Source: Amorphoplanes digitatis | GTDB taxonomy: Bacteria; Actinomycetota; Actinomycetes; Mycobacteriales; Micromonosporaceae | DNA: 64,000 nucleotides | Reading direction: 5' to 3' | Assembly (NCBI RefSeq): GCF_014205335.1 | Contig: NZ_JACHNH010000001.1 | Span: 4,520,501-4,584,500 of the forward strand | Part shown: in pieces, positions 31,007 to 40,700 of the stretch | Layout of the letters: each line of letters begins with the position of its first letter | Position numbering within the stretch: position 1 is the first letter of the stretch | The notes under the pieces: model-generated | Told to the model about the DNA's origin: nothing | Seen by the model: only the letters and a program-made list of their open reading frames with translations | The model's database searches: none | Made by a program: the position numbers and the translations under genes

Positions 31007-31648
31007 ATGGCTTTGACTCCGGACGAGTTCTATCAGCATGCGCTTGCCGCCACGGACAGTGAGCGCCGCCTTCCCCTGTCCCGCATGACGGGTTGGGAGA
31101 TCAGCCCGTTCGTGCAGGACGGCCTGCGTGTCACTCCGCTACGGCCGCCGGTGGTACCCGAGCCGCCGCGGCACGGCGAGGATCCGGCGGAGTGCGGCAT
31201 CTGCGGCGACCGGGACAAGGGCGTCTGGTTCAACGAGCGCTGGCGGCTGGACCGGATCTCCGGCGTCGGGCTGCCGCTGATCGTGATGCTCTACCCCCGC
31301 GACCACTACGACCTGGCCGACCTGCCCGACGAGATGGCCGCGGAACTCGGCCTGCTGAGTACCCGGATCGTGCGGCACGTGCAGGCGGTGCCGCACGTCG
31401 CGCGGGCACACATGTACCGCTTCGGCGACGGCGCCGCCCACCTGCACCTGTGGTTCTTCGCCCGGCCCGAAGGCCAGGCTCAACTGTTCGGATCGTGGCT
31501 GCCGGTCTGGGACGACCTGCTGCCGGAGTACCCGGCCGACCTGGCCGACGCGGATGCCGCCCTGGTCGCCGACGCGCTCGTCGCCTCGTCCGGTGGCTCC
31601 CGTACGCCCACGGCCGCCTACGGCACGGAGGCCGAGCCTGCGCGCTGA
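31007..31648 (+). CDS. HIT-like / GalT-like nucleotide-binding protein
   Basis: A 213-residue protein starting MALTPDEFYQHALAATDSER. It contains a Cys pair ECGICGDRDKGVWF, which probably belongs to a zinc site, and a C-terminal HIT-type triad segment AAHLHLWFFARPEG (H-x-H followed by an aromatic rather than the third His). The overall plan resembles small HIT or galactose-1-phosphate uridylyltransferase relatives. The missing third His leaves activity uncertain. Its 3' end overlaps the convergent acyltransferase gene by 31 nt. Confidence 0.65.
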   Translation: MALTPDEFYQHALAATDSERRLPLSRMTGWEISPFVQDGLRVTPLRPPVVPEPPRHGEDPAECGICGDRDKGVWFNERWRLDRISGVGLPLIVMLYPRDHYDLADLPDEMAAELGLLSTRIVRHVQAVPHVARAHMYRFGDGAAHLHLWFFARPEGQAQLFGSWLPVWDDLLPEYPADLADADAALVADALVASSGGSRTPTAAYGTEAEPAR

Positions 31649-32781
31649 GGCACCGCGTTCTCCGGCTGGTGCGCGCTCCGCCTCGACAGCGGTAGTGGCA
31701 CCGAGGCCGCGCGCATCACGTCGAGCGAGCGGCGGAGAACCCGCCGCAGGTACGCGCCCAGCGGCTTCTCCACCAGCCGGTGCACGGCCCACGCCAGCAC
31801 CAGCATCAGGGCCGCCGTCGCGATCAGGAGGAGCCATACGGGCGGGCGGAAGGCCAGGTACACGTTGCGGATCACCGTGTAGCCGATCCGCTGGTGCAGC
31901 AGGTACAGCGGGTACGTCAGCGCCCCGGCGGTCGTCAGCCACCGCCAGCGCACCCGTTCCAGCCGGCCGAGCGCGATCGCCAGGACCAGGCCGTAAGCCA
32001 CCGTGATGATGACGACCCCGGGCCAGGTGGGGTAGGACGCGCCGAGGCTGTGCACGCGGCGGGTCACCGCGTGCAGGTTCACGATCCAGGTGAACGCGAT
32101 CATCGCGTACAGCAGCGGCGACGGGCCGAAGCGGTGGACGAGGTACATCAGGATGCCGGCCACGAAGTACGCGGCGTACTCGGGCACGGCCAGCGCGTTC
32201 AGCAGCGTGGTGCCCAGCACCGGGCTCAGCACCGCCACGGTCATCCAGGCGGCGCAGAAGAGCACGACGCGGCGGTAGGTCAGGCCGAGCATGACCGGAA
32301 CGAGGAAGAGCAGGTAGAAACGCAGCTCGACGAAGAGCGTCCAGTAGACGCCGTCCATCGACCCGACGCCGAGGGGTTCCTGCACCATCGTCAGGTTCAC
32401 CGCGACACCGACCGGTGTCGGGTCCACCAGGCCCCAGATGCCGCCGCCGCGGAGCGGGGCCGCGACCGCGACGAGCGCGGTCAGCAGGACGGCGACCCAG
32501 TACGCCGGGTAGAGCCGGCTCACCCGGGAGGCGAAGAAGTCGCCCAGCCGGCGCCCCCAGCTGCTCATGCAGATCACGAAGCCGCTGATCAGGAAGAACA
32601 CCTCGACGCCGAGGCACCCGTACACGGCGACCCACGAGCCGGCCGGCAGGAGGTCCGACGGCGGGCTCACGCCGTCGATGCGCCAGGCCATGGTGTAGTG
32701 GAACACCATCACCGCCGCGGCGGCCAGGAAGCGCATCCCGTCCAGTGCCGCGAGCCGGGGCCCACTGTCCATTTTTTCCAT
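31618..32781 (-). CDS. Acyltransferase-3 family membrane O-acyltransferase
   Basis: A 387-residue multi-pass protein of the acyltransferase-3 family, with about ten transmembrane helices. The opening LAALDGMRFLAAAAVMVFHYTMAW carries the expected motif with His. Later segments GCLGVEVFFLISGFVICMSS and YWTLFVELRFYLLFLVPVM are family signatures. Such enzymes O-acylate sugars or lipid-linked glycans across the membrane. It lies 51 nt downstream of the polyprenyl synthase gene on the same strand, so it may be the last gene of the ebo-like operon, though it could be independent. Confidence 0.85.
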   Translation of the reverse strand: MEKMDSGPRLAALDGMRFLAAAAVMVFHYTMAWRIDGVSPPSDLLPAGSWVAVYGCLGVEVFFLISGFVICMSSWGRRLGDFFASRVSRLYPAYWVAVLLTALVAVAAPLRGGGIWGLVDPTPVGVAVNLTMVQEPLGVGSMDGVYWTLFVELRFYLLFLVPVMLGLTYRRVVLFCAAWMTVAVLSPVLGTTLLNALAVPEYAAYFVAGILMYLVHRFGPSPLLYAMIAFTWIVNLHAVTRRVHSLGASYPTWPGVVIITVAYGLVLAIALGRLERVRWRWLTTAGALTYPLYLLHQRIGYTVIRNVYLAFRPPVWLLLIATAALMLVLAWAVHRLVEKPLGAYLRRVLRRSLDVMRAASVPLPLSRRSAHQPENAVPQRAGSASVP

Positions 32782-32832: not shown

Positions 32833-33903
32833 TCAGCGGTGCCGGGCCACCACCGACGAGGCCAGGCCGGACAGGGCCGCCCGCGCCTCGGTGGTCAGCG
32901 GCGCGTCGGCGAGCGCCGACGTCGCCTCCGCCGCGCGCTGCGAGATCAGGCTCTCGATCCGCTGGCGGGCTCCGGTCGCGGTGATGATCGAGCGCAGCTC
33001 GGCGGCGCCCGCGTCGTCCAGGGCCGGGTCGCCGAAGAGTTCGCGGATGCGGGCGGCCTGTGTCCGGTCCGCCCGGTCCCGGGCCATCGCGATCATGACC
33101 GTGGGCTTGCCCTCGCGCAGGTCGTCCACGACCGGCTTGCCGGTCACCGCCGGGTCGCCGAAGACGCCGAGCACGTCGTCGCGGAGCTGGAACGCGTCGC
33201 CGAGGGGGTCGCCGAACGACTGTAGCGCCGCCTGGAGCCCCTTGGGGCCGCCGGCCAGGGCCGCGCCGATCTGGAGCGGCCGGGTCACCGTGTACCGGGC
33301 CGCCTTCATCCGGATGACCGTCAGCGCGCCCGCCACCGAGCCGTCGCCGACCCCCGAGACCAGGTCCAGGTACTGGCCGGCGATCACCTCGGTGCGCATC
33401 ACCGTGAAGAGCCGGTACCCGCGGTGTATCCACTCGACCGGCAGGCCCGACTCGTGCAGCATGTGGTCGGCCCAGGCGGCGCAGAGGTCGCCGCAGAGCA
33501 GCGCCGCGCTCTGGCCGTACCGGACGGCCTCGCCGCGCCACGAGTGCCGGGTGTGCACGTCCGCGAAGTGGCGGTGCACGGTCGGCTGGCCGCGGCGCAG
33601 GGTGCTGTTGTCCATGATGTCGTCGTGGATCAGGGCGAACGCGTGGAACAGTTCGAGCGCGGCCGCCGCCACGACGATCTGCGGGCTGTCCGGCTGCCCG
33701 GCGCCGCGCCAGCCCCAGTAGCAGAACATCGGGCGCAGGCGCTTGCCGTCGGCGAGCACGAACCGCCGTACGGCGTCGAGCACGCCCGCCGGGGTGCCGT
33801 CCGGCCAGTGTGGACGTTGCCGGTCCAGGTAGCGGATGAGCGCCGACTCGCAGCGCCGGGCCAGGCCCGCCGCGTCGGTCTCCGGCGCCATGCCCACGGT
33901 CAT
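32833..33903 (-). CDS. Polyprenyl (probably geranylgeranyl) diphosphate synthase
   Basis: A 356-residue trans-isoprenyl diphosphate synthase. The first Asp-rich motif is DDIMD in FALIHDDIMDNSTLRRGQPT, and the second is QLRDDVLGVFGD. Further conserved elements are GKRLRP and GKPVVDDLREGKPT. Chain length cannot be read with certainty; C20 is likely for stand-alone actinobacterial enzymes of this form. The ATG overlaps the end of the phosphatase-like gene by 4 nt, so its product, a prenyl diphosphate, is made in step with the UbiA-like protein encoded upstream in the operon. Confidence 0.9.
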   Translation of the reverse strand: MTVGMAPETDAAGLARRCESALIRYLDRQRPHWPDGTPAGVLDAVRRFVLADGKRLRPMFCYWGWRGAGQPDSPQIVVAAAALELFHAFALIHDDIMDNSTLRRGQPTVHRHFADVHTRHSWRGEAVRYGQSAALLCGDLCAAWADHMLHESGLPVEWIHRGYRLFTVMRTEVIAGQYLDLVSGVGDGSVAGALTVIRMKAARYTVTRPLQIGAALAGGPKGLQAALQSFGDPLGDAFQLRDDVLGVFGDPAVTGKPVVDDLREGKPTVMIAMARDRADRTQAARIRELFGDPALDDAGAAELRSIITATGARQRIESLISQRAAEATSALADAPLTTEARAALSGLASSVVARHR

Positions 33904-35282
33904 GACGGCAGCCCGGCCAGCGTGAGCAGCAATTCCTTCACCTCGGTCGCGGCGACGGCGTCCCGGGCGTGCGCCGGGTCGGAGCAGATCAGCACGGGCG
34001 CGTCGCGGGGGTCCGCCGGCAGCCGCCCGTGCGAGCCGCGGACCGCGCGGGCGCCGGCGTCGAGGCCGACGACGCTCATCAGGTAGCGCATACCGAGCTT
34101 CTTGCGCAGCAGCGCCAGCGCGGCGCGGCCCTTCGCCGCCGCCGGGCCCGCCGGGTCGAAGAACAGCTCGGCGGGGTCGTACCCGGGCTTGCGATGGATC
34201 TCCACCAGCCGGGCGAAGTCCGGCGCGGCCGCGTCGTCCAGCCAGTAGTAGTACGTGAACCAGGCGTCCGGCTCGGCGACCAGGACCAGCTCGCCGGAGC
34301 GCTCGTGGTCCAGCCCGTGCGCGGCCTTGCCGTCCGCGTCCAGTACCTCGGCGACGCCGGGCAGCGCCGCGCAGAGCTTCGCCACGGCCGGCACGTCGGC
34401 GGGGTCACGGACGTAGACGTGGGCGATCTGGTGGTCCGCCACGGCGAACGCCCGGGACGTCCACGGGTCGAGGTACTCCATCCCGGCCTGGGTGTGCACC
34501 CGCAGCAGGCCCTCGGCGCGCAGCAGCCGGTTGACGTCGACCGGGCGCGAGACGTCGGTGATGCCGTACTCGGACAGCACGACGACGGTGGCGCCGCGGG
34601 CCGCCGCCGCGTCGAGCAGCGGGCCGAGGGTGGCGTCGAGCTCGGCCGCGGCCGCCGCGGCCTGCGGGGCGGACGGACCGTGGCGTTGCAGGTCGTAGTC
34701 GAGGTGCGGCACGTAGACCAGGGTCAGGTCCGGGCGGTGGTCCGCCATGATCTGTTCGGCGGCCCGGCAGATCCACGCCGAGGACGGCAGGCCGGCGTTG
34801 GCGCCCCAGTAGCTGAAGAGCGGGAACGTGCCCAGTTTGGCGGTGAGCTCGTCGTGCAGGGCCGGCGGATCGGTGTAGCAGTCCGGGTCCTTGCGGCCGT
34901 CGGCGTGGTAGACCGGCCGCGGCGTTACCGTCCAGTCGACGTCGGCGCCCATCGCGTACCACCAGCAGACGTTGGCCACCGTGTAGCCCGGCGCGCGCGA
35001 GCGGGCCGCGTGCCACAGCTTCTCGCCACCGACCAGCGCGTTGTGCTGGCGCCAGAGCAGCACCTCGCCCAGGTCGCGGAAGTACCAGCCGTTGCCGACG
35101 ATGCCGTGTACGGCGGGCGGCTCGCCGGTGAGGAAGGTGGACTGGACCGTGCAGGTGACGGCGGGCAGCACCGTGCCCAGCGGCGCGCGGAATCCGGTGG
35201 CGGCGAGGCGGGACAGGCGCGGCATGTGCTCCAGCAGCCGCGGGGTGAGGCCGACGACGTCGAGTACGACCACGGGCTTCAC
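33900..35282 (-). CDS. eboF: EboF-like alkaline-phosphatase-superfamily protein
   Basis: A 460-residue protein of the type I phosphodiesterase/nucleotide pyrophosphatase branch. Asp8 of VVVLDVVGL and the nucleophile Thr43 in LPAVTCTVQSTFLTGEPP are in place. A second metal-site segment reads YVPHLDYDLQRHG. Where most of the superfamily has S-D-H-G, this protein has S-E-Y-G (VVVLSEYGITDV), so its metal centre may differ. The GTG start at 35282 is fixed by a GTGA overlap with eboE. In ebo clusters it is thought to act in processing or moving a small metabolite. Confidence 0.8.
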   Translation of the reverse strand: MKPVVVLDVVGLTPRLLEHMPRLSRLAATGFRAPLGTVLPAVTCTVQSTFLTGEPPAVHGIVGNGWYFRDLGEVLLWRQHNALVGGEKLWHAARSRAPGYTVANVCWWYAMGADVDWTVTPRPVYHADGRKDPDCYTDPPALHDELTAKLGTFPLFSYWGANAGLPSSAWICRAAEQIMADHRPDLTLVYVPHLDYDLQRHGPSAPQAAAAAAELDATLGPLLDAAAARGATVVVLSEYGITDVSRPVDVNRLLRAEGLLRVHTQAGMEYLDPWTSRAFAVADHQIAHVYVRDPADVPAVAKLCAALPGVAEVLDADGKAAHGLDHERSGELVLVAEPDAWFTYYYWLDDAAAPDFARLVEIHRKPGYDPAELFFDPAGPAAAKGRAALALLRKKLGMRYLMSVVGLDAGARAVRGSHGRLPADPRDAPVLICSDPAHARDAVAATEVKELLLTLAGLPS

Positions 35283-36430
35283 GGCGTGACCCCCTGTTGG
35301 GCGGTGAGACCCAGCGCGGTGAGCTGGGCCCGGGCGAAGAAGAGCTCGGAGGCGATCCCCGAGGCCAGCTCGGCGGGGCTGCCGGGGCGCGAGGTCGGCG
35401 GCAGCACGTTCCAGGTGTACGTCTCGACCTCGTAGTGGTCGCAGAGCGGCTCGGGGCCGCCGGCCAGCAGGGCGAGGGCCTCGGCGAGCACGCCGACGGT
35501 GGTTTGCAGCGGCGGTACGGGCGGCGCGTGCAGCGGCACGTGGTAGTGCACCCGCCAGGGCTGGTCGCGCCCGCCGGGCACGGCGAGGGCCTCGTCGAGG
35601 TCGTCGGTGGACAGGCCGCCGGGGCCGCGGGTCTGGTGCAGGAAGCGCGGCTCGACGTACTCGCCGAGCACCGCGGCGTCGGCGCGGGGGTCGGCGCTGG
35701 CGAGCGCGGCCGAGACCTGCACCTTGACGATCGGCAGCCCCGCGCCGGCCAGGTTGCGCAGCGCGTCCCGCGGCTCCTCCCAGGCGCAGGCGAGGTGCGC
35801 CAGGTCGAGGCAGACGCCGAGCCGGGTGGTGTCCACGCCGGCGAGCAGGCGCGCGGCCTGCGCCGTCGTCTCGATGACGCAGCCGGGCTCGGGCTCGAAC
35901 CCGACCCGGATCTCCCTGTCGAACAGGGCCAGCGTGCGGGCCAGCTCGTCGAGGTGGTGGCGGCAGGCGTCGGCGCGTGCGGCGTCCCACGGTTCGCGCC
36001 AGGCGAGCGGCAGGGTGGAGATGGACCCGCGGGCGGCGGCGGCCGGCAGCAGGTCGTTCAGCACCCGGGCCAGGTCGAGGGTGTACGAGAGCCGCTGCGC
36101 GGTGGTCCAGTCCGGCTGGTAGACGGCGTGCTTGACCACCGGCGCCTGGAACGCCTGGTACGGGAACCCGTTGAGCATGACGACCTCGAGCCCGCGCGCG
36201 TCGAGTTCCCGGCGCAGCCGCTGGCGGCCGGCGACGTCGGCGGCGAGCCCGGCCGCCACCGGTGCCGCGAGCCACAGGCCGAGACCGAGCACGTCGGCGC
36301 CGAGCCGGTCGCGGATCGGCACCGCGTAGGTGTCCAGCTGCGCCAGGATGCCGGCGAAGTCCTCGGCGGCGTGCACGTTGGTGCAGTACGACAGGTGCAT
36401 GGTCTGCCCGCCGGGGTGCCGCAGCCGCAT
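35279..36430 (-). CDS. eboE: EboE-like metabolite traffic protein (xylose-isomerase-like TIM barrel)
   Basis: A 383-residue TIM-barrel protein. From residue 11 it reads MHLSYCTNVHAAEDFAGILA, the usual EboE opening. The first ATG (36430) shares a base with the stop of eboB (TGATG) and is kept as the start, but the internal ATG is possible. Metal-site segments include VGFEPEPGCVIETT and LGVCLDLAHLACAWEEP, and the C-terminal part has YEVETYTWNVLPP. The biochemical role is not established; in other bacteria ebo genes are needed for export or proper location of secondary metabolites. Confidence 0.85.
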   Translation of the reverse strand: MRLRHPGGQTMHLSYCTNVHAAEDFAGILAQLDTYAVPIRDRLGADVLGLGLWLAAPVAAGLAADVAGRQRLRRELDARGLEVVMLNGFPYQAFQAPVVKHAVYQPDWTTAQRLSYTLDLARVLNDLLPAAAARGSISTLPLAWREPWDAARADACRHHLDELARTLALFDREIRVGFEPEPGCVIETTAQAARLLAGVDTTRLGVCLDLAHLACAWEEPRDALRNLAGAGLPIVKVQVSAALASADPRADAAVLGEYVEPRFLHQTRGPGGLSTDDLDEALAVPGGRDQPWRVHYHVPLHAPPVPPLQTTVGVLAEALALLAGGPEPLCDHYEVETYTWNVLPPTSRPGSPAELASGIASELFFARAQLTALGLTAQQGVTP

Positions 36431-37278
36431 CAGCCGCCTCCCCGCGCGATGGAGCTACCGGCGAAGGTGGCGACCGGCGCCGGGCTGGTGAGGTCGAGGC
36501 GCCCGGACTGGCTGTAGAACTCCACCGGGTTGCGCCACAGCACCAGGTCGACCTCGTCGGCGGTGAACCCGGCCGCGAGCAGCTCCCGGCCGGTTTCCAC
36601 GGTCAGCAGCGGGTCGGAGTGGCCCCAGTCGGCGGCGGAGTTCACCAGCATCCGCTCGGTGCCGTACGCCTTGAGGATCTCGACCATCCGCTGCGGCGAC
36701 ATCTTCGTCTCCGGATAGATGGAGAAGCCCATCCAGCAGCCGGTGTCGCGGACCAGGCCGACGGTGACCTCGTTGAGGTGGTCGATCGCCACCCGGCCCG
36801 GCTCGATGCCGGACTCGGCGACGACCTCGAGGCTGCGCCGGGTGCCGGCGGCCTTGTCGCGGTGCGGCGTGTGCACGAGCGCCGGCAGCTCGTACTCGAC
36901 GGCCAGGGCGAGCTGCACGGAGAAGGCCTCGTCCTCGGCCGGGGTCATCGAGTCGTAGCCGATCTCGCCGACCGCCACGACGCCGTCCTTGTCGAGGTAG
37001 CGCGGCAGCAGGTTGAGCACGCTGCGGCAGCGCGGGTCGTTGGCCTCCTTGGGGTTCAGCGCGATGGTGGCGTGGTGCCGGATGCCGAACTGCGCCGCCC
37101 GGTACGGCTCCCAGCCGATCAGCGAGTCGAAGTAGTCGGTGAACGACCCGGCGCTGGTGCGCGGCTGCCCGAGCCAGAACGCCGGCTCCACCACGGCCTG
37201 TACGCCGTTCGCGGCCATCGCCCGGTAGTCGTCGGTGGTCCGGGAGCTCATGTGGATGTGCGGGTCGAAGATGCGCAT
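36430..37278 (-). CDS. eboB: EboB-like TatD-family metal-dependent hydrolase
   Basis: A 282-residue amidohydrolase-fold protein starting MRIFDPHIHMSSRTTDDYRA. Metal ligands are visible: the H-x-H of DPHIH, Glu in VGEIGYD, His in LVHTPHRDK, His in AIDHLNE and Asp in SAADWGHSDP. The family includes nucleases and small-molecule hydrolases; within ebo clusters its substrate is unknown. The ATG shares one base with the stop of eboA. Confidence 0.85.
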   Translation of the reverse strand: MRIFDPHIHMSSRTTDDYRAMAANGVQAVVEPAFWLGQPRTSAGSFTDYFDSLIGWEPYRAAQFGIRHHATIALNPKEANDPRCRSVLNLLPRYLDKDGVVAVGEIGYDSMTPAEDEAFSVQLALAVEYELPALVHTPHRDKAAGTRRSLEVVAESGIEPGRVAIDHLNEVTVGLVRDTGCWMGFSIYPETKMSPQRMVEILKAYGTERMLVNSAADWGHSDPLLTVETGRELLAAGFTADEVDLVLWRNPVEFYSQSGRLDLTSPAPVATFAGSSIARGGG

Positions 37279-37883
37279 CAGCCCTGCCTCCTCGAGTTGT
37301 TCGCGACGGTGAGCCGGTTGAGCAGCGCGAGGGCGTCCGCCGGCATCCGGCGGTCGGCGGCGGCGCGCTCCTGCGCGAGGGCGCCGAGCATGGTGGCGAG
37401 CTCCGCGTCGGCGCGCTCGTCGAGGCGGTCGACGGCGCTGAGCGGGATGCCCATGAAGACGCACTTGACGACGCCCTGGCGCCAGGCCGCGGCGTCGAGA
37501 TGCGCCGCGTACGGGCCGAGCGCCGCGGCGACCAGCCGGGCGTCGTTGGTGCGCAGCGCGTCGTGCAGCAGCGGCACCAGCTCGGGGCCGATCTCCAGCA
37601 GCGGCAGCGCGGCGAGCACGGCCAGCCGCTCGGCGGTGTCGCCCTGCTGGTACAGGTTGGTGGTCCGGGCCGGGTCGGCCACCTCCACCAGCAGCAGCGC
37701 CCGCCCGGCCCGCCCGGCGGTCCAACCGCTGTCCGGGAACAACGGCTCCCGGCCGAGCTTGCGCTCGGCCCGGGCGAACAGGGGCGCCAGCTCGTCCGGG
37801 TCGTCGCGGACCCGGGCCAGCGCGTCGTCGAGCCAGTCCCTTTCCGGTACGCCGGCAAGCGCGGCGCGCAGCTCCTCGATCAT
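37278..37883 (-). CDS. eboA: EboA-like metabolite traffic protein
   Basis: A 201-residue helical protein. The pattern GWTAGRAGRALLLVEVADP, followed by LYQQGDTAERLAVLAALPLL, HDALRTNDARLVAAALGPYAA and a conserved VVKCVFMGIPLSAVDRLDERAD (about 151-172), is characteristic of EboA. No catalytic motif is evident. The start at 37883 overlaps the stop of the upstream TIM-barrel gene by 4 nt (ATGA). Confidence 0.88.
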   Translation of the reverse strand: MIEELRAALAGVPERDWLDDALARVRDDPDELAPLFARAERKLGREPLFPDSGWTAGRAGRALLLVEVADPARTTNLYQQGDTAERLAVLAALPLLEIGPELVPLLHDALRTNDARLVAAALGPYAAHLDAAAWRQGVVKCVFMGIPLSAVDRLDERADAELATMLGALAQERAAADRRMPADALALLNRLTVANNSRRQG

Positions 37884-38722
37884 TGAGCCTCCTTCTCGGC
37901 GGCTCGCAGGAACGCCAGCGATTCGCGGGCGACCGTCGGCGCCGCGTGCGAATGCCGGGGCAGTTCGACGGCGACCAGGCCGCGGTAGCCGCCGTCGATG
38001 AGCGCCCGCAGCACGGGCGGGAAGTCGATCTCTCCGGTGCCGAACTCGAGGTGCTCGTGCACGCCCCGGCGCATGTCGTCGATCTGGACGTTGACCAGGT
38101 GCGGCGCGACCGCGGCCACGCACTGCGGCACGGGCAGCGGCTCGAGGCAGCGGCAGTGCCCGATGTCCAGGGTGAGGCCGAACATGGCGGGCTCGCCCAG
38201 GTCGGCGCGCAGGCGCCGCCAGCCGTCGAGGTCGGCCACCTCCATCCCGGGCTCGGGCTCGAACCCGAGCGGCACCCCGGCGGCGGTGGCCGCGGCCGTG
38301 ACGTCGGCGCAGCCGTCGACCAGCCGGCTCCAGGCGGTGCGGTCGTCGACGCCGTCCGGCCGTACCCCGGACCAGAAGGAGACCGCCTCGGCGCCGAGGT
38401 CCGCGCCGACCGCGACCGCCCGGTGCAGGAATTCGAGCCGCAGCTTCCGGTCGTCGTGCAGCAGCGTCGGCGCGTGCTTGCGCCAGGGGTCGAGCAGGTA
38501 GCGGGCGCCGGTCTCGACGACGACGCCGAGGCCGAGGTCGCGGAGCCGGTCGGCGACCTCGGCGACCCGGCGGGCCAGGCCCGCCGCGAACGGGTCGAGG
38601 TGGTCGTGGTCGAGGGTGAGCGCGACGCCGGTGTAGCCGAGGCCGGCGATGACGGCGAGGGCGTCGCCCAGCCGGTGGTTGGCGAAGCCGTTGGTGCCGT
38701 AGCCGTACCGCAGGGCGGTCAT
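37880..38722 (-). CDS. Sugar-phosphate isomerase/epimerase-like TIM barrel, additional to EboE
   Basis: A 280-residue protein starting MTALRYGYGTNGFANHRLGD, with the xylose-isomerase-like fold. Probable metal ligands are Glu in VVVETGARYLLDP, Glu in LGFEPEPGMEV, Asp/His in LTLDIGHCRCLEP and Glu in VAVELPRHSH. A second such barrel beside EboE is not part of the six-gene ebo set. It may epimerise or isomerise the cyclitol made by the inositol-phosphate-synthase homologue. It overlaps the UbiA-like gene by 4 nt. Confidence 0.8.
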   Translation of the reverse strand: MTALRYGYGTNGFANHRLGDALAVIAGLGYTGVALTLDHDHLDPFAAGLARRVAEVADRLRDLGLGVVVETGARYLLDPWRKHAPTLLHDDRKLRLEFLHRAVAVGADLGAEAVSFWSGVRPDGVDDRTAWSRLVDGCADVTAAATAAGVPLGFEPEPGMEVADLDGWRRLRADLGEPAMFGLTLDIGHCRCLEPLPVPQCVAAVAPHLVNVQIDDMRRGVHEHLEFGTGEIDFPPVLRALIDGGYRGLVAVELPRHSHAAPTVARESLAFLRAAEKEAQ

Positions 38723-39567
38723 GTGGGTGAGACCTTGCGGGCGAGCAGCCGGGCGAGCGGGGCGGCCGCCGCGACCGCGAGCCCGGCCCAGGTGCGGCCG
38801 GCCCGGGCGGCGAGCGCGCCCTGGAGCGCGGGCAGCGCGGTGATGCCGGCGCCGACCGCGGCGCGTACCCGCGGCGCGGCGGGGTCGGTGAGGAGGCGTG
38901 CCTGCGCGCGGCCGTAGCTGGTGGCGTACTCGGCGGCGAGCACGGCGGTGACGGTGCCGCCGCGCGCGGCGACCGCGGCGGCCAGGGCGGCGGTGCCGGC
39001 CAGGGTGGCCGCGGGCAGCTTCGCGGAGGTGCCGCCGGCGACCTCGTGGCGGGACAGCTCGGTGACCGTGTACGTGTGCGCGGCGACGGCGAGGGCGGCC
39101 GGCAGCGCGCGTACCGGATTGCCGGTGCTCGCGCCGAGCAGCACGTCCAGGGCGCGGCAGGCGGCCATCCCGGCGGGCCCGGCCGCGGTGTTCTTCAGGC
39201 GCAGGTCGTATGCCCAGACCGCGGCGGCCAGCGGACCCGCCACGGCCAGGGCGCGGGCGCCGCCCGCGCGGGCGGCGAGGGCCAGGCCGGCCGCGGTGAG
39301 CCCGGCCGCGATGCCCAGCGCGGCGGGTGCGGAGATCCGGCCGGAGGGTATCGGGCGTTCCGGGCGCTCGGCGGCGTCGAGGTCGCGGTCGGCCCAGTCG
39401 TTGGCGGCCATCCCGGCCCAGTAGAGGCAGACCCCGGCGCCGGCGAGGCCGGCCGTGCGCGGGCCCAGCGTGCCGGCCGCGGCGGCGCCGGCCACCGCGT
39501 CGCCGGGCACGGAGAGCGCGGCCGGTGCGCGGACCAGTTCGGCGAGGGTGCGCAACGGCGTCTTCAC
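38719..39567 (-). CDS. eboC: EboC-like UbiA-family prenyltransferase
   Basis: A 282-residue membrane protein with seven to nine helices. The first prenyl-diphosphate motif is AANDWADRDLDAAERPERPIPSG (N-D-x-x-D-x-x-x-D). The second region, YDLRLKNTAAGPAGMAACRALDVLLGAS, is typical of EboC-type proteins and lacks the plain D-x-x-x-D of quinone-pathway UbiA. The start is the GTG at 39567, which gives a GTGA overlap with the upstream cyclase gene. It would transfer a prenyl group, probably from the C20 diphosphate made downstream, to a polar acceptor. Confidence 0.85.
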   Translation of the reverse strand: MKTPLRTLAELVRAPAALSVPGDAVAGAAAAGTLGPRTAGLAGAGVCLYWAGMAANDWADRDLDAAERPERPIPSGRISAPAALGIAAGLTAAGLALAARAGGARALAVAGPLAAAVWAYDLRLKNTAAGPAGMAACRALDVLLGASTGNPVRALPAALAVAAHTYTVTELSRHEVAGGTSAKLPAATLAGTAALAAAVAARGGTVTAVLAAEYATSYGRAQARLLTDPAAPRVRAAVGAGITALPALQGALAARAGRTWAGLAVAAAAPLARLLARKVSPT

Positions 39568-40700
39568 GACGCGAGTCCGGCCGTGAACGCCGCGAGGGTG
39601 GCCCACTGCTCGGCCAGCGCCGACGGGCCGTCGCCGAGCGGGTCCTTGAAGAAGAAGCCGAGCTCGGCCAGCGGGCCGCTGCGCCCGGCGCGGTGCGCGG
39701 CCGCGGTGAGCCGGGCCAGGTCGAGCACGAGCGGCGCGGCCAGGGCGGAGTCGCAGCCGTGCCAGCTGAACTCCATCCGCATGCCGGTGCCGAGGAAGCC
39801 CTCGAACGTGATCAGGTCCCAGGCGGTCTTGAAGTCGCCGATCTCCGCCACGTAGTCGATCCGGCTGGTGCCCTCCGGCTGGTATCCGAGCGCGTCGCCG
39901 AGCACCCGCTGCTTGCTGGAGACCTTGGCGGCGTTGGCGGCCGGGTCGGCCAGGTTGGCGCCGTCGCCGCCGCCGAGCAGGTTGAGCCCGGACCAGCTGC
40001 GTACCCGCAGATTGCGCAGGGCGAACATGGGCGCGAGCACCGACTTGACGAGGGTCTCGCCGGTCTTGCCGTCGTTGCCGGCGTACGGGACGGCCCGCGC
40101 CCGGGCGAGCTCGGCCAGGGCCGGCAGCCGCGCGCCGGTCGACGGGGTGAAGTCGATGAAGGAGCAGCCGGCGGTGAAGGCCGCGTACGCGGCGAGCGCG
40201 CTCGGCGGCAGCACCGGCGCCGGCCCGGCCAGGGCGGCGGTGAGCTCGGCGAGCCCGGCGTGCGCGGGGTGCGGCGCGGCGGCCGGCTCGGTGGTGGACA
40301 CGTTGACGACCACCACCCGGTCGAGGGCGTTGCGGTCGCGGAAGCCGCGCAGGTCCGCCGAGATACGCCGCGCGGTCGCGGCCTGGGTGTCGCCGGCCGG
40401 CAGCGGCCGCAGCTCCTGCTCGACCGCCGCGAGCTCGTCGGCGAGCGCGACGACGAGCCGGCCCGGCAGCACCCCGGCGGCGGCGAGCGCGTCTGCCTTC
40501 TTCAGCACGGGGGTGGTGACGATGTCGTGGCCGCCGAAGACCAGCTCGGACCAGCCGGGCAGGGCCGGGCCGCGCAGCTGCGGCAGTTCGGTGACGCAGC
40601 CGGTCGGCGCGACGAGGCGGGCCCGCAGCGCGGCGGCACCGACGATCGAGGTGACGGCGACGGAGCCGCGGGCACCGATCAACCATATTCCGGTACGCAT
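39564..40700 (-). CDS. myo-Inositol-1-phosphate synthase family cyclase heading the ebo-like operon
   Basis: A 378-residue member of the inositol-3-phosphate synthase family. The NAD-binding loop reads WLIGARGSVA. Conserved catalytic-region segments are VNVSTTEP, the GNDGKTGETLVKSVLAPMF segment with its lysines, and SWSGLNLLGGGDGANL. The length is near that of bacterial Ino1. Normally the enzyme cyclises glucose-6-phosphate; here operon context suggests a dedicated cyclitol supply. ATG 40700 is preceded by GGGGAGG at a 6-nt spacing. It is the first gene of the operon, where other ebo loci carry the DHQ-synthase-like EboD cyclase. Confidence 0.85.
   Translation of the reverse strand: MRTGIWLIGARGSVAVTSIVGAAALRARLVAPTGCVTELPQLRGPALPGWSELVFGGHDIVTTPVLKKADALAAAGVLPGRLVVALADELAAVEQELRPLPAGDTQAATARRISADLRGFRDRNALDRVVVVNVSTTEPAAAPHPAHAGLAELTAALAGPAPVLPPSALAAYAAFTAGCSFIDFTPSTGARLPALAELARARAVPYAGNDGKTGETLVKSVLAPMFALRNLRVRSWSGLNLLGGGDGANLADPAANAAKVSSKQRVLGDALGYQPEGTSRIDYVAEIGDFKTAWDLITFEGFLGTGMRMEFSWHGCDSALAAPLVLDLARLTAAAHRAGRSGPLAELGFFFKDPLGDGPSALAEQWATLAAFTAGLAS

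Follow-up and report, generated by a model that had tools for sequence, protein, structure and literature searches.

An ebo-type operon of Amorphoplanes digitatis with an inositol-phosphate synthase and a TIM-barrel partner in the place of EboD

The ebo operon (eboA-F), known from eustigmatophyte plastids, from Nostoc and as the EDB cluster of Pseudomonas, is needed for export of the scytonemin monomer in Nostoc, and its match to the nematode-deterring Pseudomonas cluster has been reported (PMC6282210). In the ebo literature that we examined, the enzymes it encodes are without an established physiological reaction. Its cyclase, EboD, is placed with the sedoheptulose-7-phosphate cyclases in the part of PMC5133447 that deals with it. 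The BE-40644 pathway of Actinoplanes, as presented in part of the same paper, has in common with the operon described below a cyclitol and a UbiA-type prenyltransferase. Moreover, SCO3242 and SCO3243 of Streptomyces coelicolor, the latter a “Myo-inositol phosphate synthase”, are listed as CDA-cluster genes in the section of PMC3610822 that names them, where no link to ebo is drawn. Here we describe an ebo-type operon in a window of 64,000 nucleotides from A. digitatis (contig NZ_JACHNH010000001.1, positions 4,520,501 to 4,584,500), in which, with a probability that we put at roughly 0.6, the ring-forming step is carried out by an inositol-phosphate synthase (Ino1) and a TIM-barrel protein (TIM3) instead of EboD, supplying a cyclitol for prenylation by a UbiA-type enzyme.

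The operon comprises eight minus-strand genes running from 40.7 to 32.8 kb of the window, overlapping by 1-4 nucleotides, with a single 29-nucleotide gap as the largest spacing. The genes, and one neighbour beyond them, are as follows:

39564..40700, minus strand: ebo-type Ino1; PF07994 (158.5 bits) and PF01658 (105.4 bits), both above cut-off
38719..39567, minus strand: UbiA-superfamily prenyltransferase in the EboC position; NF045897, “SCO3242 family prenyltransferase” (360 bits, cut-off 260)
37880..38722, minus strand: TIM3, a xylose-isomerase-like TIM barrel, next gene but one after ino1; PF01261
37278..37883, minus strand: EboA-domain protein; NF035938 (140.9 bits, cut-off 50)
36430..37278, minus strand: EboB, a TatD-like metal hydrolase; PF01026
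35279..36400, minus strand: EboE, a TIM-barrel “metabolite traffic protein”; NF035939 (389 bits, cut-off 250)
33900..35282, minus strand: EboF, a type I phosphodiesterase/nucleotide pyrophosphatase; PF01663 (222 bits)
32833..33903, minus strand: short-chain polyprenyl-diphosphate synthase, overlapping eboF by 4 nucleotides; PF00348 (168.6 bits)
31618..32781, minus strand: acyltransferase-3 protein, 51 nucleotides beyond the prenyl-diphosphate synthase gene; PF01757

An earlier note on this DNA, made from the sequence alone, had claimed that an inositol-phosphate synthase heads an ebo operon lacking EboD, and the family matches, the overlapping genes and the scores on the EboA-domain and EboE models bear this out. 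The window operon shares with described ebo operons the EboA domain, EboB, a UbiA prenyltransferase, EboE and EboF. It differs from them in having no EboD, in carrying Ino1 and an extra TIM barrel, in ending with a prenyl-diphosphate synthase, and in its UbiA protein, which belongs to the UbiA family but reaches 127.9 bits on the EboC equivalog model, below the cut-off of 250. The EboA-domain protein likewise falls below the cut-off of the full EboA_family model (67.5 against 320). EboB shows 42-57% identity with EboB from four EboD-type records, and EboF 44-58% with EboF of the EboD-type clusters of Azospirillum, Aureibacter and Deinococcus. The order of the first two genes recalls S. coelicolor, where the prenyltransferase that gave the family its name lies next to a myo-inositol phosphate synthase (PMC3610822, in the section cited above), and the same order was seen in the Streptomyces loci inspected.

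PF07994 and PF01658 are the sole family matches of the operon Ino1, which does not match the DHQ_synthase profile PF01761. Its reading frame is open to 40760 (40760-39564, minus strand, 398 residues), and the start at 40700 agrees with the starts of homologues. The best relative among solved structures is 1u1i (222 bits), the inositol-1-phosphate synthase of Archaeoglobus fulgidus, followed by 6k96 (59 bits) and 1gr0 (34 bits). Residues N255, K274, K278, K306 and K367 of 1u1i correspond to N260, K279, K283, K311 and K372 of the 398-residue frame, all kept, and the columns are invariant across 15 ebo-type Ino1 proteins from Actinomycetota, haloarchaea and Gemmatirosa. We take these lysines and the asparagine to be the catalytic residues of the Ino1 family, an assignment that point-mutant structure entries support. 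The window enzyme thus shares its catalytic residues with the A. fulgidus enzyme and differs from it by its linkage to an ebo operon. On this conservation it appears to be a distant inositol-phosphate synthase with an intact active site, and NAD-dependent cyclisation of glucose 6-phosphate is predicted. A changed reaction, on another sugar phosphate or to another ring, so that the product would not be myo-inositol phosphate, has a precedent in the superfamily, since 6k96, a five-membered-cyclitol-phosphate synthase, is among the structure matches. We nevertheless consider it improbable, given that the window Ino1 lies much nearer the A. fulgidus enzyme than 6k96 (222 against 59 bits) and retains all four catalytic lysines and the asparagine.

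Alternatively, the operon Ino1 might be a surplus copy of a housekeeping inositol synthase, present by chance or for bulk inositol, and its family membership and preserved catalytic residues agree with that. However, a second Ino1 elsewhere in the genome passes the mycothiol INO1 model TIGR03450 (662 bits, cut-off 638), on which the window protein scores 30.9 bits, and the two share 28% identity over 193 residues. In a tree of 44 sequences, six mycothiol-type Ino1 proteins of the same superfamily are set apart by a long branch (100/100), and the 15 actinobacterial operon Ino1 proteins form a single clade (100/99) beside haloarchaeal and planctomycete Ino1 (90/94). This is the separation from housekeeping Ino1 that the earlier note had expected under replacement, and its own counter-case, that this might be the only housekeeping Ino1, does not apply. 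Since the operon enzyme moreover tracks EboE among Actinomycetota (13 of 13 genomes against 0 of 283, see below), the housekeeping explanation is largely refuted and we regard it as very improbable.

The other counter-case raised in the earlier note, an eboD homologue elsewhere in the genome, fails as well. A PF01761 search across the genome, a single contig of 9,128,557 bases, returned one protein above cut-off, an AroB that passes TIGR01357, and no EboD; a glycerol-1-phosphate-dehydrogenase-like protein matched just below threshold (22.2 bits against 24.2). With a profile built from five EboD proteins, AroB (134 bits) was the sole match in the genome and again no EboD was found; in control genomes and records, true EboD proteins scored 370-682 bits on this profile and AroB proteins at most 199. 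A hidden EboD is consequently ruled out by both searches. The genome does hold a second EboE-like protein (C1:7252667-7253611, 176.7 bits), which we rejected as an ebo component since it lies below the EboE cut-off and no other ebo gene was found nearby.

The arrangement is not peculiar to the A. digitatis genome; ebo operons across Actinomycetota take this form as standard. EboE exceeds its cut-off in 13 of 296 genomes of this phylum (14 at E<=0.001), and Ino1 at 518 bits or more is present in all 13 and in none of the other 283, an association well outside what chance would give. Weaker classes of Ino1 occur in seven other genomes (335-364 bits) and in further ones (about 240-295 bits). EboD was found in none of the 296 at E<=1e-60. 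Fourteen actinobacterial ebo clusters were inspected, with Ino1 in place in 12 and TIM3 in 13; in Micromonosporaceae, Ino1 and TIM3 are present in every one of 20 clusters, chosen mostly from the top of a longer match list, and the prenyl-diphosphate synthase in 14. Among the actinobacterial plasmid records listed with EboB, this Ino1 is close by in 28 of 30, judged from coordinates in tables that list 50 of 51 and 40 of 44 records. On one Streptomyces plasmid a ScyD/ScyE-family gene lies immediately upstream of the ino1 of the ebo operon (L047, 2817-4016), which recalls the link between ebo and scytonemin genes in cyanobacteria. As a regular ebo neighbour such a gene was rejected, because it stood beside this one Streptomyces plasmid cluster only among the loci searched, a set that excludes six later loci and may or may not include 20 further ones.

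Beyond Actinomycetota, EboD and the ebo-type Ino1 nearly exclude each other. Among 50 other EboB-bearing genomes (loci L049-L098 of 80, the 80 being the best of at least 587 confirmed matches), EboD is present in 38, ebo-type Ino1 at 438 bits or more in seven, both in one and neither in six (Fisher p = 0.00036). The 80 loci are skewed to Planctomycetota and Verrucomicrobiota, and completeness of the genomes is not stated. In a tree of EboB from 65 clusters each cyclase trait changes at least seven times, and independent pairs run in the direction expected under exclusion, with on average 3.7 of six pairs opposite, 0.1 the same and 2.2 without difference; cyclase labels on the trees were assigned by hand from genome and cluster searches and from plasmid annotations.

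The same kind of Ino1 recurs in distant lineages. On haloarchaeal plasmids (Halocatena, Natronococcus, Halobaculum) it clusters with EboB, UbiA, EboF and two TIM barrels, and Gemmatirosa has EboE, EboG, EboB, EboF, UbiA, Ino1 and TIM3. Clusters of the EboD type were found in Azospirillum, Aureibacter, Deinococcus, Ketogulonicigenium, Mycetohabitans, Roseivivax and Salipiger, and in part in Gloeothece; the stretches fetched around them contain no annotated inositol synthase, a statement that covers plasmid records only and not the chromosomes. In Salipiger sp. CCB-MM3 (L179, 825-2726) the “3-dehydroquinate synthase” at the EboD position has about 633 residues, far more than other EboD proteins, which suggests a fused domain. 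Two Halomarina plasmids hold a haloarchaeal ebo-type Ino1 with no ebo genes nearby (L046, 8986-10230; L175, 6998-8176), and that of L046 adjoins glycosyltransferases. Six Planctomycetota have ebo-type Ino1 and TIM3 without EboD. In the relevant part of PMC5133447, two of three planctomycetes were reported to be without eboD, and the cause was cautiously put to draft genomes; Ino1 and TIM3 instead of EboD offer an explanation for such cases.

Ino1 does not stand alone in this exchange. In genome searches with a TIM3 profile, TIM3 coincided exactly with ebo-type Ino1 among the 50 EboB genomes, being found in the seven with this enzyme and not in the remaining 43 (Fisher p = 1e-8). In the 296 Actinomycetota it is present in 19 genomes, every one with Ino1 at 335 bits or more, 13 of them the ebo genomes; the only one in which an Ino1 of this strength lacks a TIM3 above threshold is G173, where TIM3 is cut by the contig end. 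What replaces EboD is accordingly a pair, Ino1 and TIM3, and not one enzyme. The earlier note's proposal of a non-homologous replacement of one cyclase by another therefore stands as regards an unrelated cyclase for EboD and near-exclusion across phyla, but not as a one-for-one exchange. Among solved structures TIM3 is nearest to sugar 3-epimerases, isomerases and IolI; among curated families it comes nearest to hydroxypyruvate isomerase, ribulose-phosphate epimerase and IolE, scoring far below cut-off on all of them. A xylose-isomerase-like part fused to EboA in actinobacteria, with no link to a cyclase drawn, is mentioned in the part of PMC5133447 concerned with EboA, and we take this part to be TIM3.

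Five of the six non-ebo genomes with TIM3, together with G173, place TIM3 with Ino1, an HD-domain protein, an IolG-like oxidoreductase and YcaO, and the five complete sets add a methyltransferase, a GT4 glycosyltransferase and a PIG-L-like protein. As found in G053, G065, G076, G152, G237 and, truncated by the contig end, G173 (L200-L205; L200, 4490-15620), this conserved operon contains Ino1, HD, methyltransferase, IolG-like, metallo-beta-lactamase-like domain, YcaO, TIM3, GT4 and PIG-L-like de-N-acetylase. It resembles a small-molecule pathway that is built on inositol and includes a YcaO step. Partial sets occur on plasmids, with Ino1, HD, methyltransferase and IolG in Methylobacterium and Roseomonas (L171, L172) and Ino1, HD and IolG in Hymenobacter (L173). 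The sixth non-ebo genome (G279, deep Actinomycetota) has Ino1 adjoining TIM3 and a weak PIG-L match. A reading of it as an ebo genome whose Ino1-TIM3 pair is unlinked was rejected; because its Ino1 is nearer that of the YcaO cluster, we did not count this Ino1 among the ebo-type ones. The company of TIM3 and Ino1 in two settings argues that the substrate of TIM3 either stems from the Ino1 product or leads to it.

Several observations weigh against the reading that Ino1 and TIM3 perform the ring-forming step in place of EboD. First, the exclusion is not complete. In six of the 50 genomes neither cyclase reaches the threshold; one of the six, G584, has part of an EboD where a contig stops. A metagenome-assembled Gemmatimonadetes genome (G556; L157, L159, L049) carries both systems on separate contigs, one with UbiA, Ino1 and TIM3 and the other with UbiA, EboD, EboE and EboF, so that each system has a UbiA of its own; this is either true coexistence or a mixed bin. 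The sign test on independent pairs is not significant (median p 0.125), and the exclusion is thus clear in counts but, in this sample, as yet unproven once kinship is corrected for. Secondly, the linkage has exceptions. Two of the 14 actinobacterial clusters (L024 and L036) are without an adjacent ino1, the exceptions being G279 and a second cluster of G128, whose other cluster carries Ino1. Two Streptomyces plasmids (L169, L170) retain EboB-EboE-EboF only, with no match to Ino1, UbiA, TIM3 or EboA within flanks of 7 kb, the front half of the operon having gone together. A Haladaptatus plasmid has an ebo cluster with neither cyclase on that record, and the planctomycete ino1 genes are not adjacent to other ebo genes, the stretches fetched around them containing no ebo gene and no TIM3. 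Thirdly, the TIM3-Ino1 pair also occurs in the YcaO cluster without ebo genes and therefore is not exclusive to ebo. Finally, the product of Ino1 retains its phosphate and EboD-type cyclisation expels it, so that the two cyclases, of unrelated families though in the same pathway position by our reading, are not chemically equivalent; a further step, for which TIM3 or EboF are candidates, would be required before the two routes could meet. The release of phosphate by cyclases of the EboD superfamily is described in the part of PMC5133447 devoted to them, and the earlier note was mistaken in having EboD, too, make a cyclitol phosphate.

Whether the two kinds of operon lead to one compound bears on what EboD makes. 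From the results it could be hypothesized that Ino1-TIM3 and EboD, though unrelated, both lead to one and the same cyclitol acceptor for the ebo prenyltransferase and have been swapped repeatedly in bacteria and haloarchaea; on this view EboD would be a cyclase of the glucose-6-phosphate type (C6) rather than of sedoheptulose 7-phosphate, and Ino1-TIM3 a portable module that also serves the unrelated YcaO cluster. We offer this tentatively, at well below even odds. Alternatively, the operons may have diversified, those with Ino1 and TIM3 making a different compound (e.g. a prenylated inositol phosphate) through shared EboB, EboE, EboF and UbiA, and those with EboD a C7-cyclitol compound. The placement of EboD with sedoheptulose-7-phosphate cyclases and the differing fate of the phosphate speak for such diversification, as do the retention of both systems with separate UbiA genes in G556 and the UbiA tree, in which the actinobacterial proteins, failing the EboC model, form a clade of their own (16 rows, 100/100). 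However, the same tree has clades holding both cyclase types, with closely related UbiA enzymes accompanying either cyclase in Pirellulales (L081 vs L075/L106) and Gemmatimonadota (L157/L041 vs L159). EboB, EboE and EboF are moreover common to both operon types, and both cyclases meet in one genome of 50. We hold diversification to be somewhat unlikely. Strict segregation of UbiA by cyclase type was rejected, as the tree needs at least four changes. The mixed clades suggest a common or similar acceptor, and the separate actinobacterial clade leaves room for a different product. The claim of the earlier note that the replacement would narrow down what EboD makes accordingly holds only if the routes converge on one acceptor, which the kinship of UbiA across the swap suggests but does not show. 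Solved relatives of EboD gave no decision on its substrate, with dehydroquinate synthases ranking first, then 4p53, which we take to be the valiolone synthase ValA, and 2-deoxy-scyllo-inosose synthase.

The gene content, the linkage, the near-exclusion of EboD, the pairing of Ino1 with TIM3, the clade membership and the conservation of catalytic residues are observed; on these we propose activities, an order of steps and a product. Ino1 would convert glucose 6-phosphate to inositol phosphate, as its conserved catalytic residues suggest. TIM3, resembling metal-type isomerases, epimerases or dehydratases, may turn the cyclitol into the acceptor, a role suggested by its strict co-occurrence with Ino1 and its kinship to IolE- and IolI-like enzymes. 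The membrane-bound UbiA protein would join an isoprenoid to this acceptor, its diphosphate donor probably being made by the synthase whose gene closes the operon. EboF may take off a phosphate, and EboB and EboE, with EboA, could finish the molecule. The predicted product is a prenylated cyclitol, a membrane-linked metabolite or carrier, in line with ebo proposals in PMC6282210 and in part of PMC5133447. The neighbouring acyltransferase-3 gene probably lies outside the operon core: used as a query it gave one match only among the neighbour loci searched, and no conservation with the operon was seen. A scan for promoters and terminators found nothing useful.

Our searches of open-access PubMed Central brought up no paper describing Ino1 as part of an ebo operon, and the word “inositol” is absent from PMC5133447, PMC6282210 and PMC9235831. 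The Ino1-type variant was thus not found described in the papers searched, while the UbiA-Ino1 gene pair has already been seen and named, as the “SCO3242 family prenyltransferase” of NCBI and in the section of PMC3610822 cited above.

In conclusion, the Ino1/TIM3 variant provides a new handle on the product of the ebo operon and bears on an open question. Because the chemistry of Ino1 is well understood, a start from this enzyme offers a first step that can be tested, the conversion of glucose 6-phosphate to inositol phosphate; TIM3 can be tested as the second enzyme, and a prenyl donor is predicted.

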